Of a stretch of 64,000 nucleotides of DNA, positions 31,787 to 37,987 are shown piece by piece. Within the stretch, counting starts at the first letter, position 1. Every line of letters begins with the position of its first letter. This DNA is from Myxococcota bacterium. GTDB taxonomy: Bacteria > Myxococcota_A > Bradymonadia > UBA7976 > UBA1532. The notes under the pieces are model-generated. The model saw only the letters and a program-made list of their open reading frames with translations. It was not told the origin of the DNA and made no database searches. The stretch is from the NCBI GenBank assembly GCA_963169045.1, contig CAUJDF010000058.1:186001-250000 (forward strand), given 5' to 3'. A program made the translations under genes and the position numbers.

Positions 31787-32667
31787 CACGCCCCCCGGAA
31801 CTGCGCGGTGCGCTTCTCGACGAAGGCGGCGAGGCCCTCGCGGGCGTCGTCGCTCGCGAAGAGCTTCGCCTGCAGCTCGCGCTCGAGCGCCAGGCCGTAC
31901 TCGAGCGGCAGCTCCGCCCCGCTCTGGACCGCGCGCTTGATGTGGCCCACGGCGAGCGGCGGGCGTCCGGGCGCGCAGAACGAGGCCGCGTGCGCCACCA
32001 CCCCCTCGACGAAGGCGTCGCGGGCCAGCGCGGGGACGAGGCGCTTTTTGCCCTTCACCTCGCGCTCTTCGGCCTCGCCGAACACCTGCGTGACGAGACC
32101 GAGCGCCTGCGCGGCGTCGGCGTCCATCGTCCGGCCGGAGAGCATGAGCTCCATCGCCCGCGCCGGGCCGAGCAGGCGCGCGAGGCGCTGCGTGCCCCCG
32201 GTGCCGGGCAGCACGCCGAGGTTCACCTCGGGCAGGCCCACCATGCCGCCGGCGCGCCGCGCCACGCGCAGGTCGCAGGCGAGCGCGATCTCGAAGCCGC
32301 CGCCGACGCAGTGCCCGTTGATCGCGGCGACGACCAGCTTCGGCGTCTGCTCGAGGCGCGACAGCGTCTCGTTGGCGTGCAGGCAGAAGTAGTACTTGCT
32401 CGTGGGATCGGCGGCCTCGAGCATCTTGATGTTGGCGCCGGCGCAGAAGTGCTCTCCCGCGCCGGTGATCACGATCGCCTGCACCTCCGGCTCGAAGCGC
32501 GCGCGGACGATGGCGGCGTCGAGGTCGCGGAACATGCGGTGCGAGTACCCGTTGAGGTCCTCGTCTTCGATCGTGAGCAGCGCCACGGGGCCACGGCGCT
32601 CGTAGTGGCAGCGGACGCGGTCGGGATCGCCCCAGAGGTCGGCCCTCGTCGTCTCACGCGTGGACAT
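31786..32667 (-). CDS. Enoyl-CoA hydratase/isomerase (crotonase family)
   Basis: A 293-residue CoA-binding hydratase. I start it at the ATG at 32667, which fits family length. A longer frame upstream lacks similarity. Oxyanion-hole motifs are GEHFCAGANIKML and NGHCVGGGFEIALACDLR. The two catalytic Glu equivalents are in LPEVNLGVLPGTGG and RAMELMLSGR. It would hydrate 2-enoyl-CoA (or isomerise) in beta-oxidation or butyrate-type metabolism. It is divergent from a 3-hydroxyacyl-CoA dehydrogenase that catalyses the next step, supporting the assignment. The Lys-rich insert (EVKGKKRLVP) is unusual. Confidence 0.9.
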   Translation of the reverse strand: MSTRETTRADLWGDPDRVRCHYERRGPVALLTIEDEDLNGYSHRMFRDLDAAIVRARFEPEVQAIVITGAGEHFCAGANIKMLEAADPTSKYYFCLHANETLSRLEQTPKLVVAAINGHCVGGGFEIALACDLRVARRAGGMVGLPEVNLGVLPGTGGTQRLARLLGPARAMELMLSGRTMDADAAQALGLVTQVFGEAEEREVKGKKRLVPALARDAFVEGVVAHAASFCAPGRPPLAVGHIKRAVQSGAELPLEYGLALERELQAKLFASDDAREGLAAFVEKRTAQFRGA

Positions 32668-32678
32668 GGTCGCCTCGC

Positions 32679-32708
32679 TTGCAGGTGCGGATGGGTCGTA
32701 CATATCAT
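32679..32708 (+). promoter_or_regulatory. Candidate promoter for the 3-hydroxyacyl-CoA dehydrogenase operon
   Basis: TTGCAG (32679-32684), an 18-base spacer and TATCAT (32703-32708, 5/6) lie in the AT-rich core of the 73-base gap between the divergent crotonase and dehydrogenase genes. The start would be near 32715, giving a leader of about 26 bases to GTG 32741. The -35 is weak (3/6). The opposite strand probably holds the crotonase promoter in the same patch, but I could not identify it. Confidence 0.4.
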
Positions 32709-32740
32709 TCGCGCCTCTCCGGAGCACGAGGGACCAGAGG

Positions 32741-33598
32741 GTGACCGACATCCAGCGCATCACCGTCGTCGGCGCGGGCACGATGGGGCACGGCATCGCC
32801 GCCCAGGCCGCCCGCTGCGGCTTTCGCGTCGTCCTCAACGACGTCACCGCCGAGCGCGTCGAAGCGGGGCTCAAGGCGGTGAAGCACACCTATGCGACCG
32901 GCCTCGCGAAGGGCAAGCTCACCGAGGAGCACGTGGCCTCGGCCGAGGCCTCCCTGCGCGGCGAGATCGACCTCGAAGGCGCCGTGGCCGACGCCGACCT
33001 CGTGATCGAGGCCGTCCCCGAGAGCATGGAGCTCAAGCGGGCCCTGTTCACGCGATTCGAGGCGGCGGCGCCGCGGCACGCGCTGCTCGCGAGCAACACC
33101 TCGAGCCTCTCGATCACCGAGATCGCGGCGGCGACGAAGCACCCGCAGCGGGTCGTCGGCCTGCACTTCTTCAATCCGGTCGCGGTGATGCCGCTGCTCG
33201 AGATCGTGCGCGGCGAGCACACCGAGGCGCGCACGATCGAGACGGCGTTCGCCCTCGGCAAGCGGCTCGAGAAGGAGTGCATCGTCGTCCAGGACTCGCC
33301 GGGCTTCGCGACGAGCCGCCTCGGCATCGCCCTCGGCAACGAGGCCATGCGCATGTTCGAGGAGGGCGTGGCCAGCGCCGAGGACATCGACCGCGCCATG
33401 ACGCTCGGCTACCGCCACCCCATCGGGCCGCTCGCGCTGACCGACCTCGTCGGCCTCGACGTGCGCCTCGCCATCACCGAGCACCTCTTCCGCGAGCTCG
33501 GGACCGACACCTTCCGCCCGCCGCGCATCCTCAGGCGCATGGTGCGGGCCGGCAAGCTCGGCCGGAAGACGGGCCAGGGCTTCTATCGGTACGAGTGA
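32741..33598 (+). CDS. 3-hydroxyacyl-CoA (3-hydroxybutyryl-CoA) dehydrogenase
   Basis: A 285-residue NAD-dependent dehydrogenase. I use the GTG at 32741, four codons before the Rossmann motif ITVVGAGTMGHGIA. An upstream in-frame ATG at 32660 would extend into the divergent gene. The catalytic His-Glu region is present (SNTSSLSITEI, VGLHFFNPVAVMPLLEIV), as is the C-terminal helical domain (RLGIALGNEAMRM, RHPIGPLALTDLVGLD). It oxidises 3-hydroxyacyl-CoA to 3-ketoacyl-CoA. It heads a coupled run of six genes. The metabolic enzyme in front of two ArsA-like ATPases is unexpected, but the GTGA overlap makes co-transcription likely. Confidence 0.92.
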   Translation: MTDIQRITVVGAGTMGHGIAAQAARCGFRVVLNDVTAERVEAGLKAVKHTYATGLAKGKLTEEHVASAEASLRGEIDLEGAVADADLVIEAVPESMELKRALFTRFEAAAPRHALLASNTSSLSITEIAAATKHPQRVVGLHFFNPVAVMPLLEIVRGEHTEARTIETAFALGKRLEKECIVVQDSPGFATSRLGIALGNEAMRMFEEGVASAEDIDRAMTLGYRHPIGPLALTDLVGLDVRLAITEHLFRELGTDTFRPPRILRRMVRAGKLGRKTGQGFYRYE

Positions 33599-34533
33599 CG
33601 TTGCAGAACTTCCTCGATCGGCGCTTCACGCTCGTCACGGGCAAGGGCGGCGTCGGCAAGTCCACCGTCACCGCCATCCTGGCGCTGCTCCACGCGGCGG
33701 CGGGCCGGCGCACGCTCGTCTGCGAGCTGAACGCGCTCGAGCGCGTGGCGCCGCTGCTCGGCCACCCGCCGGTGGGCGCGAAGGTCACCGCGCTCGAGCG
33801 CAACCTGTCGGCAGTGAACATCCTGCCGGCGCAGGCGCTCGAAGAGTACGCGCAGATGAAGCTGCGCAGCCGCACGGTGACGCATCTCGTCTTCGACAAC
33901 CCGCTCGTGCGCCGCTTCGTCGAGTTCGTGCCGGGCATGAACGACCTGCTGATGTTCGGCAAGGCGTTCAACCACGAGCGCGAGCGGGACGAGGACGGCC
34001 GGCCCGTCTGGGACTCGATCATCATCGACGCGCCCGCCACCGGGCACGGTGTGAGCTTCTTCCGACTGCCGAAGGTCATCCAGGACGCGGTCCCGGCGGG
34101 CAACATGCACGACGAGGCCAGCGAGATGTGGAACCTGCTGCGGGATGCGCGGCGCACGGCCATCCACCTGGTCGCGCTGCCCGAGGAGCTGCCCGTCCAG
34201 GAGACGATCGAGCTGCATCAGCGTCTGCGCGACGAGCTGGGGCTGCCGCTGGGGTTCCTCGTGATCAACATGATGCCGCCGCCGCTGCTCGACGCGGCGC
34301 AGGCGGCGGCGTTCGCGCGGCTGCCCGCGCCCGACGATCCGGTGCTGCGACCGCTGTGGGCCGCGGCGCGCATCCGCCTCGGCCGCGAGGCGCTCGCCGC
34401 CGGCTACGAAGAGCGGCTCGAGAAGCTGGGCATGCCGCTCGTGCGCCTGCCCACCGTGTACTCGCCGGGGTATGCCCGGGCCGAGATCGAGGCGCTGACG
34501 CGGGCGTTCGGCGCGCAGGCGGGGGCGCGATGA
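33595..34533 (+). CDS. ArsA/Get3-like ATPase, subunit with signature Lys but without switch-I Asp
   Basis: A 312-residue ArsA-family deviant-Walker-A ATPase. Starts at GTG 33595 in the dehydrogenase stop (a TTG at 33601 is an alternative). The P-loop GKGGVGKS (16-23) keeps the signature lysine K17 and the P-loop lysine K22. The switch-I motif, normally D-P-A, is replaced by CELNALER (about 43-50), losing the catalytic Asp. The D-x-P-x-T-G-H-type motif is kept as IIIDAPATGH (about 142). No CxxC, and the client-binding groove is short. It should dimerise with the next gene product, with which it overlaps by four bases. Confidence 0.85.
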   Translation: MTLQNFLDRRFTLVTGKGGVGKSTVTAILALLHAAAGRRTLVCELNALERVAPLLGHPPVGAKVTALERNLSAVNILPAQALEEYAQMKLRSRTVTHLVFDNPLVRRFVEFVPGMNDLLMFGKAFNHERERDEDGRPVWDSIIIDAPATGHGVSFFRLPKVIQDAVPAGNMHDEASEMWNLLRDARRTAIHLVALPEELPVQETIELHQRLRDELGLPLGFLVINMMPPPLLDAAQAAAFARLPAPDDPVLRPLWAAARIRLGREALAAGYEERLEKLGMPLVRLPTVYSPGYARAEIEALTRAFGAQAGAR

Positions 34534-35678
34534 GCCTCGACCTCGCCCGCCTCGTCCGCGAGCGCCGCCTGATCATCACCGCGGGCGCCGGGGGGGTCGG
34601 CAAGACGACGACCGCCGCCGCGCTGGCCGTGATGGCCGCCAGCGAGGGCCGGCGCACCGCCGTGCTCACGATCGACCCGGCGCGGCGCCTCGCCAATGCG
34701 CTCGGCCTCGAGGCGTTCACCGAGAAGGGGCACCACGTCGACGCCGCGACGTTCCGCGCCGCCGGCCTCGAGCCGCGCGCCGAGCTCTTCGCGATCATGC
34801 TCGACACGAAGAGCACCGCCGACCAGATGGTGCAGCGCTTCGCGCCCGACGAAGAGGCGGCGCGGCGCATCCTCGCCAACCGCTACTACCAGGCCTTCAG
34901 CACCTACCTCGCGGGGACGCAGGAGTACATGGCGATCGAGCGCGTCGTGGCGCTCGTCGAAGAGGGCGGCTTCGACCTCGTCGTGCTCGACACGCCCCCG
35001 GCCACGCACGCGCTCGACTTCATCGACGCCCCGGAGCGCATGCTCAACGCGCTCGACAACCGGGCGATGAACTGGCTGTACCGGCCCGCGCAGGGCGAGC
35101 CGGGTTTCGGCACGCGGCTGCTCGGCCGCGGGCGCAAGATCATCACACGCTCGCTCGACGTCTTCACCGGCGGCCCCTTCTTCGAGGACCTCGCCACCTT
35201 CCTGTCGGCGTTCAGCGCGCTGTTCGGCGCCTTCAAGGAGCGCAGCCGGCGCGTACGGGCGCTGCTGCGCGAGCCGGGGACGGCGTTCCTCGTGGTGGCG
35301 GCGCCGAGCCCGGCCAGCGTCCAGGACTCGATCGTCTTCGCGCGCAAGCTCGGGGAGCGCGAGCTGCCTTTCGGCACGTTCGTGTGCAACCGCGTCCACC
35401 GGCCCATCCACGGACCGGAGGTCGATCTCGCGACGGTCGCCGATCACCTGCGCGCCGCGCTCGGCCCCGACGCCCCCGTCGACGCGCTCGCCGTCAGCCT
35501 CGCCGCCGGCCTTGCCGACCACAACCGCATGGCCGCGCGCGACGCCGGTGCCATCGAGCGCCTCGCCGACGCCGCCGAGCGCATGCCCGCGGTGGTGCCG
35601 CTGTTCCCCGAGGACGTCCACGACCTCCACGGCCTGCGGCTCATCGGCGAGCACCTGCTCGCGGAACATTCGCCGTAG
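34530..35678 (+). CDS. ArsA/Get3-like ATPase, subunit with switch-I Asp but without signature Lys
   Basis: A 382-residue ArsA-family ATPase. The P-loop is AGAGGVGKT: the signature lysine expected before GGVGKT is Ala20, while K25 is kept. The switch-I motif is intact (TIDPARRL, D49). The motif LDTPPATHALDF is the D-T-P-x-x-T-H equivalent. The middle helical part is rich in Phe, Leu and Arg (FEDLATFLSAFSALFGAFKER), typical of Get3/ArsA client regions. It is translated coupled to the partner gene by ATGA. Together they look like an obligate heterodimer comparable to the paired ArsA-like proteins of mycobacteria (Rv3679-Rv3680). Confidence 0.88.
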   Translation: MSLDLARLVRERRLIITAGAGGVGKTTTAAALAVMAASEGRRTAVLTIDPARRLANALGLEAFTEKGHHVDAATFRAAGLEPRAELFAIMLDTKSTADQMVQRFAPDEEAARRILANRYYQAFSTYLAGTQEYMAIERVVALVEEGGFDLVVLDTPPATHALDFIDAPERMLNALDNRAMNWLYRPAQGEPGFGTRLLGRGRKIITRSLDVFTGGPFFEDLATFLSAFSALFGAFKERSRRVRALLREPGTAFLVVAAPSPASVQDSIVFARKLGERELPFGTFVCNRVHRPIHGPEVDLATVADHLRAALGPDAPVDALAVSLAAGLADHNRMAARDAGAIERLADAAERMPAVVPLFPEDVHDLHGLRLIGEHLLAEHSP

Positions 35679-35696: not shown

Positions 35697-36959
35697 ATGC
35701 GCAAGTACCCGTTGTGGCTCGCACTTCTCGCCGCCGGCTGCGGCGGCGCCCCCCGGCCCGCCCCCGAGAGGCCCATCCCCGAAGAGATCATCGAGATGGA
35801 CGGCATCGCCATCACCGTGGTCGGCGACGGCAAGGAGGGCGGGAATCCGGTGACCGAGGCCTTCGACGCGCTCACGCTGTTCGAGGGCGCGCGCAAGGCC
35901 TTCGACGAGGGCCGCTACGACGAGGCGGAGCGCGGTTACGCGAAGCTGCTCGAGCTCTTCCCCGAGGGCCGGCTCGTACCGCCGGCGCTGTACAACCGCG
36001 GCCTCGCCCTCGAGGCGCTGCGCCAGTACGCGCAGGCGGCGGCGAACTTCCGGCGCTACGCGCAGCTCGCCGACAACCTCAAGGACCGGCGGGACGGCGA
36101 GTTCCGCTGGGGTCACAACCTCGTGCGCACCGGCGACCACCCCTCGGCGGTGTCGCTGTACACGCGGCTGCTCGAGGCGGCGGATCTCGGCCCCGCCGAC
36201 CGCGCCGAGGCCTACCTGCGCCGCGGCACCTCGCTGCTCAACCTCGGCCAGTACGGCGAGGCGGAGCGCGACCTCAAGGCGAGCCTCGAGCAGGCCGGCC
36301 TGGCCTACGACAACGTGCTCGACGGCAACGAGCTCGCCGCGGAGGTGCACTTCCGCCGCGCCGAGATCTACGAGCGCCTGTGCGGCAACGTGCGGCTCAA
36401 GCTGCCGGTGGAGAAGATGAAGGAGGACCTCGCCGACAAGGCGCGCTTCTTCCGGCAGGCCCAGCACGCCTACATCGACGCGCTGAACGTGCGGAACCCG
36501 TACTGGGCCACCGCCTCGGGCCTCAAGCTCGGCGAGCTGTACGAGAACTTCTACCGCGACGTGCTCACCGCCGAGGTGCCGTCGGACTTCGCCGAGCAGG
36601 AGCGCCGCTTCTACTTCCAAGAGCTGCGTGGGCGGCTGCGGCCGCTGCTGCAGGCCTCGCTCGACATCTACGAGAAGAACGTGGCGATGAGCGAGCGCAT
36701 CGGCGCCGACAACGAGTGGGTCGCCGAGACGGAGCGCCGCCTCGAACGCCTGCGCGCGCTGCTCGTCGAGGCGAAGGCCGCCGAGGCCGAGGTGAAGGCG
36801 GGGGTGCTGCCGAGCGGCGGCTCGTCACCCGAGAGCGCGCCCGGCGCCGGCCCCGGCCCGACGCCGTCCCCCACTCCGCCGCCGCCCCCGTCCGAGTCGC
36901 CGGCGCCTCCCCCCGAGCCGGCCGAGCCGTCGACCACCGTGGAGGGCGCGACCGGGTGA
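35697..36959 (+). CDS. TPR lipoprotein with Pro-rich C-terminus
   Basis: A 420-residue lipoprotein (lipobox ending AAGC, Cys15), then a Pro-rich linker and six or so TPR units (about 55-320; the words ALYNRGLALEALRQYAQA and YLRRGTSLLNLGQYGEA are classic). A coiled region follows and the last 50 residues are Pro/Ser/Glu-rich. It lies 18 bases after the second ArsA-like gene and 17 before mltG. Probably an outer-membrane or periplasmic assembly factor. Its position beside an ArsA-like pair, a lytic transglycosylase and a DUF1841 protein suggests a role in envelope biogenesis. Confidence 0.82.
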   Translation: MRKYPLWLALLAAGCGGAPRPAPERPIPEEIIEMDGIAITVVGDGKEGGNPVTEAFDALTLFEGARKAFDEGRYDEAERGYAKLLELFPEGRLVPPALYNRGLALEALRQYAQAAANFRRYAQLADNLKDRRDGEFRWGHNLVRTGDHPSAVSLYTRLLEAADLGPADRAEAYLRRGTSLLNLGQYGEAERDLKASLEQAGLAYDNVLDGNELAAEVHFRRAEIYERLCGNVRLKLPVEKMKEDLADKARFFRQAQHAYIDALNVRNPYWATASGLKLGELYENFYRDVLTAEVPSDFAEQERRFYFQELRGRLRPLLQASLDIYEKNVAMSERIGADNEWVAETERRLERLRALLVEAKAAEAEVKAGVLPSGGSSPESAPGAGPGPTPSPTPPPPPSESPAPPPEPAEPSTTVEGATG

Positions 36960-36976: not shown

Positions 36977-37987
36977 ATGCGCCGGCTCCTCCGCATCTTC
37001 CTCCTCTTGTTGCTCGTCGCCGGCGGTGTCGGCGGCTACGGCGCCCACCGCGCGCTGAAGTACCTCGACGCGCCCATCGACGCGCAAGGTGGCGAGACCC
37101 GGGTCGAGATCCCGAAGGGCGCCCACTTCCGTGAGGTGGTGCGCCTGCTGGCCGACGCCGGGCTCGTCCGCGATCCGCTCGTCTTCGAATGGTACGGGCG
37201 CTATCTGAAGGCGGAGCGCGGCGTCAAGGCCGGCGTGTACGCCATCGACCGCGCGATGACGCCGCGCACGCTGCTCGAGGAGCTGCGCCGCGGGGCGCTG
37301 CCCGAGCAGGTGCTCGTCACCCTGCCGGAGGGCTACAACCGCTGGCAGATCGCCGACGCGCTGAGCAAGGCCGGCGTCGCCGATCGCGCCGCCTTCCTCG
37401 CCCACGTCGAGCGCGACGACCTCGAGGGCCGGCTGTTCCCCGACACCTACTGGATCAAGAAGGGCGCCACGCTCGACGAGGTGGTCCGCCTCCTCACCGG
37501 CCACTTCGAGGCCGTCTTCGACGAGGTCGTGAAGGGCCACCCGGAGGAAGCGAAGCTGCGCAGCGACCCGGTCGCGAGGCGGCGTCTGCTGATCATCGCC
37601 TCGCTCGTCGAGAAGGAGGCGAAGACCGAGGAGGATCGGCCGCTCATCGCGCGGGTCTTCGAGAACCGACTGCAGCGCGGCATGAAGCTCGAGACGGACC
37701 CGACCTGCGTCTATGGTGCTGACATCTATCAGGAAGTGCCGCACCCGCGCTTCTGCCGCGATGCGAGCAGCCGCTACAGCACCTACGTCATCTCGGGGCT
37801 GCCGCCGACGCCGATCGCCAACCCGGGCCGCGCGTCGCTCGTCGCCGCGCTGCGGCCGGCGACCGGCGAGCGCGCCGAGAAGCTGCTCTACTTCGTGGCG
37901 AAGCGGGACGGCACGGGCGCGCACCACTTCAGCGAGACGTTCGGAGAGCACGACAAGGCCGTCGACCGCTTCCTCCGCCAACGGTAG
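36977..37987 (+). CDS. mltG: Endolytic transglycosylase MltG (YceG)
   Basis: A 336-residue inner-membrane lytic transglycosylase that cleaves newly made glycan strands and so sets strand length. An N-terminal membrane helix (about 5-22) precedes a LysM-like subdomain (IPKGAHFREVVRLL). The catalytic domain contains the expected Glu in LVEKEAKTEED, the LETDPTCVYG motif and the YVISGLPPTPIANPG signature. Length matches the family. Shine-Dalgarno is AGGGAG, 5 bases upstream. Confidence 0.96.
   Translation: MRRLLRIFLLLLLVAGGVGGYGAHRALKYLDAPIDAQGGETRVEIPKGAHFREVVRLLADAGLVRDPLVFEWYGRYLKAERGVKAGVYAIDRAMTPRTLLEELRRGALPEQVLVTLPEGYNRWQIADALSKAGVADRAAFLAHVERDDLEGRLFPDTYWIKKGATLDEVVRLLTGHFEAVFDEVVKGHPEEAKLRSDPVARRRLLIIASLVEKEAKTEEDRPLIARVFENRLQRGMKLETDPTCVYGADIYQEVPHPRFCRDASSRYSTYVISGLPPTPIANPGRASLVAALRPATGERAEKLLYFVAKRDGTGAHHFSETFGEHDKAVDRFLRQR

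Follow-up and report, generated by a model that had tools for sequence, protein, structure and literature searches.

Get3 is a homodimeric ATPase in which each chain has a signature lysine and a switch-I Asp, together with a CxxC zinc site (PMC10248533). The lysine, termed intradimeric, crosses the dimer and stabilises the transition state, while the Asp positions the attacking water; with Glu at the Asp position, NosGet3d still permits slow hydrolysis (PMC10248533). ArsA, the arsenite ATPase, is likewise built of two pairing units, fused in tandem in one chain with the lysine and a DPA motif in both halves; two fused canonical ArsA proteins among our loci (L248 and L250) have both motifs in each half. 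A third arrangement is found in Mycobacterium tuberculosis (Mtb), where the adjacent genes bagA and bagB, in that order, encode the pair Rv3679-Rv3680 (PDB 6BS3, 6BS4 and 6BS5). Here the residues are split: Rv3679 has GKGGTGKS and VEVEGR, and Rv3680 has GAGGVGKT and IDPAKR. For Get3-like pairs of bacteria a structure has been solved, but the literature surveyed gives them no settled molecular function.

The stretch analysed here (the window) is 64,000 nucleotides of a Myxococcota bacterium contig. Judged by sequence and modelled fold, a gene pair within it is the Myxococcota version of the mycobacterial BagA-BagB ATPase pair. The best PDB matches in phmmer were Rv3679 for BagA (6bs3_A, E 6.9e-32) and Rv3680 for BagB (6bs3_B, E 9.5e-67). 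Single-chain AlphaFold2 models (pLDDT 94.7 for BagA and 90.1 for BagB) each gave at Foldseek rank 1 the 6BS3 chain that phmmer had placed first (E 3.0e-21 and 4.3e-26, respectively), with Get3, TRC40 and ArsA ranking below the Rv3679/Rv3680 chains for both, and the Pfam label of both proteins is ArsA_ATPase. An earlier note on this DNA, made from the letters alone, had proposed an ArsA/Get3 fold for both proteins and a pair of the Rv3679-Rv3680 kind; Pfam and the models bear out the former, and the two chains of that complex, nearest in sequence and in fold, the latter. The best NCBIfam models (NF053622 for BagA, 145 bits; NF053621 for BagB, 319 bits) fall short of their equivalog cut-offs of 400 and 521 bits; since these cut-offs define mycobacterial equivalogs, this lowers the claim to be the same gene and leaves membership of the wider family unaffected.

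The window pair and Rv3679-Rv3680 are alike in fold, in gene order and in the complementary split of residues, at about 31-39% identity. They differ in their gene neighbours, in the switch-I position of BagA (Glu in Mtb, Asn in the window) and in number, there being two bagAB pairs in the window's genome, unlike Mtb. With Get3 and TRC40 the window pair has in common the fold, the intradimeric Walker A chemistry and a helical subdomain between the nucleotide motifs. Unlike Get3, it divides the lysine and the Asp over two chains, and CxxC is absent from both proteins, each of which has a single Cys; on these two grounds canonical Get3 was ruled out. Nor does the pair match ArsA, with its single chain and its lysine and DPA in both halves. 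Coordinates are collected in Table 1.

Table 1. Features of the bagAB locus in the window and of the second pair in the same genome (window positions, unless a contig is named)
Feature	Position	Strand	Description
3-hydroxyacyl-CoA dehydrogenase	32660..33598	+	longest ORF, true start may be further in
bagA (pair 1)	33595..34533	+	GTG start, 312 aa, lysine-donating subunit (predicted)
bagA K17 codon AAG	33643..33645	+	signature (intradimeric Walker A) lysine in GKGGVGKS
bagA N46 codon AAC	33730..33732	+	at switch-I catalytic Asp position, in CELNALER
bagB (pair 1)	34530..35678	+	ATG start, 382 aa, expected catalytic-site subunit
ATGA overlap, 4 bases	34530..34533	+	bagA stop / bagB start
bagB A20 codon GCC	34587..34589	+	at signature-lysine position, in GAGGVGKT
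bagB D49 codon GAC	34674..34676	+	switch-I Asp in TIDPARRL; D49-P50-A51 present
TPR protein with lipobox LAAGC	35697..36959	+	directly downstream of bagB; kept in window's family and L219
mltG (YceG-like, murein transglycosylase family)	36977..37987	+	further downstream
bagA2	contig C79, L009:5715-6788	-	GKGGVGKS / CELATHG
bagB2	contig C79, L009:4606-5718	-	GPGGVGKT / DPAKRL

The earlier note had read K17 and a replaced switch-I D-P-A in BagA, Ala20 and D49 in BagB, and a four-base overlap of the genes, and the open reading frame translations and coordinates agree on every point. N46 of BagA was matched to the Asp position by alignment to BagB, and Glu44 stands two residues ahead of it. The Walker A lysine of BagA is K22, and the switch-II Asp of BagB is D154.

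For a family-wide comparison, homologues were taken from GTDB contigs and whole genomes. A first non-redundant set comprised 111 scored BagAs (a further row, being a fragment, lacked the motif) and 144 BagBs: the signature lysine was found in 111/111 BagAs and 0/144 BagBs, and the switch-I Asp in 144/144 BagBs. The enlarged non-redundant set gave the same picture, with the lysine in 124/124 BagAs and in 0/150 BagBs, where the position is occupied by Ala (55), Ser (51), Pro (20), Cys (14), Thr (8) or Gly (2). Thr, Asp and Pro of BagB switch I are each present in 150/150. The lysine split is a family rule, holding in every homologue examined and in Rv3679-Rv3680, and for this reason it is not the local novelty for which it might have been taken. 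Homologues with complete motifs in both partners, which the earlier note had set against its own reading, were not found, there being no lysine in any of the 150 BagBs.

The Asp loss in BagA behaves differently. It is a strong tendency, variable in its letter: among the 124 BagAs the position is Asn in 43, Asp in 26, Glu in 22, Gly in 14, Ala in 9, Ser in 4, Gln in 3 and Thr in 3. The 26 with Asp, which include the pair-1 BagAs of two genomes of the window's own family (G058 and G209), rule out this loss as a family rule. Co-conservation is exceptionless for the lysine split and for the BagB Asp, and a strong tendency for the BagA Asp loss. A quick tree of BagA calls for 16 changes among the switch-I letters, while the lysine column is invariant; a varying switch I beside a fixed lysine is what would be expected if constraint on BagA's own site has relaxed and its lysine acts at the BagB site. 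BagA's own Walker A lysine is replaced by Arg in 5/124 (0/150 in BagB), the switch-II Asp is invariant in both proteins and the A-loop Asn is present in 124/124 BagAs and 149/150 BagBs. At the position of window Glu44, Glu is found in 89/124 BagAs, the rest having mostly Met, Gln or Leu, and many of these are unlinked BagAs.

Taken together, BagA-BagB most likely works as a heterodimer of the ArsA/Get3 (intradimeric Walker A) class that is both obligate and functionally asymmetric, with one composite catalytic site and one non-catalytic site. The residue pattern fits the heterodimer with one complete composite site that had been proposed from the window alone; with the lysine supplied by one partner and always absent in the other, probably one ATP site of two works. 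The heterodimer in the window's organism is predicted by homology to 6BS3, and catalysis at one site only, like client handling by BagAB, is a proposal. ATP bound to BagB would be hydrolysed in a composite site made of the BagB P-loop, D49 and D154 and of BagA K17, the transition-state lysine lent to it. The BagA-side site would probably keep nucleotide binding, its P-loop, switch-II Asp and A-loop Asn being present, and would have no catalysis, since BagB cannot supply a lysine and switch I of BagA has decayed. The dimer would open or close upon hydrolysis at the single site, such that a client is bound or released. Heterodimeric ABC transporters such as CFTR and TM287/288 have two composite ATP sites, one of them catalytic and the other not; BagA-BagB would work like these transporters with one degenerate site, although fold and family are unrelated and no membership is claimed. 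Given the slow hydrolysis by NosGet3d with Glu, the absence of a trans lysine carries more weight than the substitution of the Asp, and the second site could keep some activity in BagAs that bear Glu or Asp. The lysine-free BagB site may moreover have some activity on its own.

The second pair has the same lysine split and is 35-39% identical to the first. In the BagA tree the pair-1 and pair-2 BagAs belong to two distinct groups, both supported and both containing further Myxococcota. The pair-2 group mostly retains the Asp; bagA2 is a long branch whose exact position is unsure. Two BagB matches are found in many Myxococcota genomes.

Partnership of the two genes extends beyond their adjacency. 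Linked pairs have the order bagA then bagB in 118/118 cases, and the mirror-tree correlation over 87 non-redundant BagA/BagB pairs is r 0.925, which partly reflects shared ancestry. At the search's own cut-offs, BagB was detected in 216 and BagA in 219 of 237 Myxococcota genomes. Because BagB cross-matches score roughly 1e-20 to 1e-35, we counted as genuine BagA only matches better than 1e-40, a cut set after viewing the results table. With this cut, 213 of the 237 genomes have both genes and 20 have neither, leaving 3 with BagB alone and 1 with BagA alone (Fisher 6.5e-25, or 1.4e-17 without family f5, both uncorrected for phylogeny and partly reflecting shared ancestry). Family f5, from the window's class, had neither bagA nor bagB in 7/7 sampled genomes at the cut-offs used, possibly a clade-wide loss.

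Several Myxococcota families hold both genes at unlinked loci, e.g. in G178, G007, G033 and G169 (loci L151, L170, L150, L113, L153 and L103); in G178, a single contig, the best bagA and bagB matches lie about 187 kb apart. Many of the 16 genomes sampled through loci had been picked for a bagB without adjacent bagA. Since all 16 hold bagA, often elsewhere, the reading of lone bagB loci as lysine-free homodimers is unsupported. A metagenome bin titled Klebsiella pneumoniae (L068 and L243; G250) also carries bagAB; its BagA groups with Myxococcota family f27, and the title is probably wrong. One IMG/VR scan for viral origin or spread returned no BagB relative.

Other readings of the pair can be weighed against these data. 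Both sites might hydrolyse ATP, another residue substituting for BagB's missing lysine, as the P-loop, switch-II Asp and A-loop Asn retained in both proteins, and the Asp or Glu at switch I of 26 and 22 of the 124 BagAs, would allow. This is unlikely: none of the 150 BagBs has another base at the position, which is A, S, P, C, T or G, and on the BagA side switch I varies freely and the Walker A lysine can be Arg (5/124). We think it quite unlikely that BagA and BagB are separate homodimers, merely co-transcribed. Both sites of a BagB homodimer would be without the lysine, and those of a homodimer of the window's BagA without the Asp, although those BagAs with both residues could build complete homodimer sites. 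The Mtb crystal entries in the PDB moreover contain one chain of each protein, the title of Whitaker et al. 2020 describes the Mtb pair as two interacting ATPases, and the unlinked loci that would suit independent homodimers occur in genomes where both genes are nevertheless co-retained.

That neither site is catalytic, the complex being a nucleotide-sensing or structural scaffold, is very unlikely, for the invariance of the BagA lysine, and in BagB of the switch-I T-x-D-P and of the residues of Walker A and switch II, is hard to explain without catalysis; degenerate catalytic residues are however known in several ArsA/Get3 relatives (PMC10248533), and the nearest structure, 6BS3, is ADP-bound. 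That the pair is a true ArsA, transporting arsenite or another anion, would account for the Pfam matches of both proteins and is the most improbable of the readings, having almost no chance of being right. As each protein has a single Cys and neither has CxxC, there is no ArsA-type metalloid site, BagA and BagB are far nearer to Rv3679/Rv3680 than to ArsA, and no arsenic genes were found among the scanned neighbours of the window's bagAB; the absent cysteine site and the nearer relatives led us to rule out an arsenite ATPase.

In the window the stop of the 3-hydroxyacyl-CoA dehydrogenase gene overlaps the bagA GTG by four bases (33595-33598), mirroring the bagA/bagB overlap and suggesting translational coupling of the three genes. 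Most members of the window's family have the dehydrogenase gene beside bagA, and the order 3-hydroxyacyl-CoA dehydrogenase, bagA, bagB, TPR lipoprotein is largely kept in this family, often with mltG and DUF1841 next. Among three pair-1 loci compared from other families, the TPR gene alone recurs, in one (L219). The earlier note had suggested an envelope-linked client from these neighbours: their conservation stands within the window's family and largely does not reach beyond it, which makes that inference weak. Cell-wall genes do lie near bagAB in two lineages, a bifunctional PBP being found in many actinobacterial loci, but the genes are different ones, and a bagB on its own, close to the der and era GTPase genes, is found in many Myxococcota. 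Clustering of the neighbours, which is cluttered by antisense ORFs, shows lineage-specific contexts and no common client gene across the clustered bagAB neighbourhoods, and the neighbourhood was set aside as a guide to the client. An envelope client is a possibility. In the bagAB literature, one paper deals with how insertion mutants tolerate citrate (PMC10597346), another with streptomycin survival (PMC12216072). A ParA/Soj-like ATPase gene (QKGGVGKTT) is found near the right end of the window, at about 59.9 kb (contig C58:245928).

Asp-bearing BagAs exist, and BagB and canonical ArsA/Get3 all have the Asp; from this distribution the order of losses can be inferred, the lysine probably having gone from BagB first and BagA switch I having drifted afterwards. 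We would give about an even chance to a broader reading: that the BagAB pairs form an ancient class of intradimeric Walker A ATPases whose asymmetry is obligate, with one subunit a dedicated trans-lysine donor, in which loss of the BagB lysine before the actinobacterial/myxococcal split freed the BagA catalytic residues to drift, and that the two pairs of many Myxococcota perhaps have separate clients.

The residue observation from which this work started is confirmed, and its interpretation was largely right and not new in kind. This analysis adds that the lysine rule has no exception, that BagA's own site is relaxed, that the genome has a second pair and that the two genes are inherited together even when unlinked. 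BagAB would represent a natural division of labour among ATPases that are mostly portrayed as symmetric dimers, and a rule that holds across 124 BagAs and 150 BagBs provides two single-residue handles, BagA K17 and BagB D49, on the putative working site. The pair is near-universal in Myxococcota, often in two copies, so that its genetics becomes feasible in non-pathogens.
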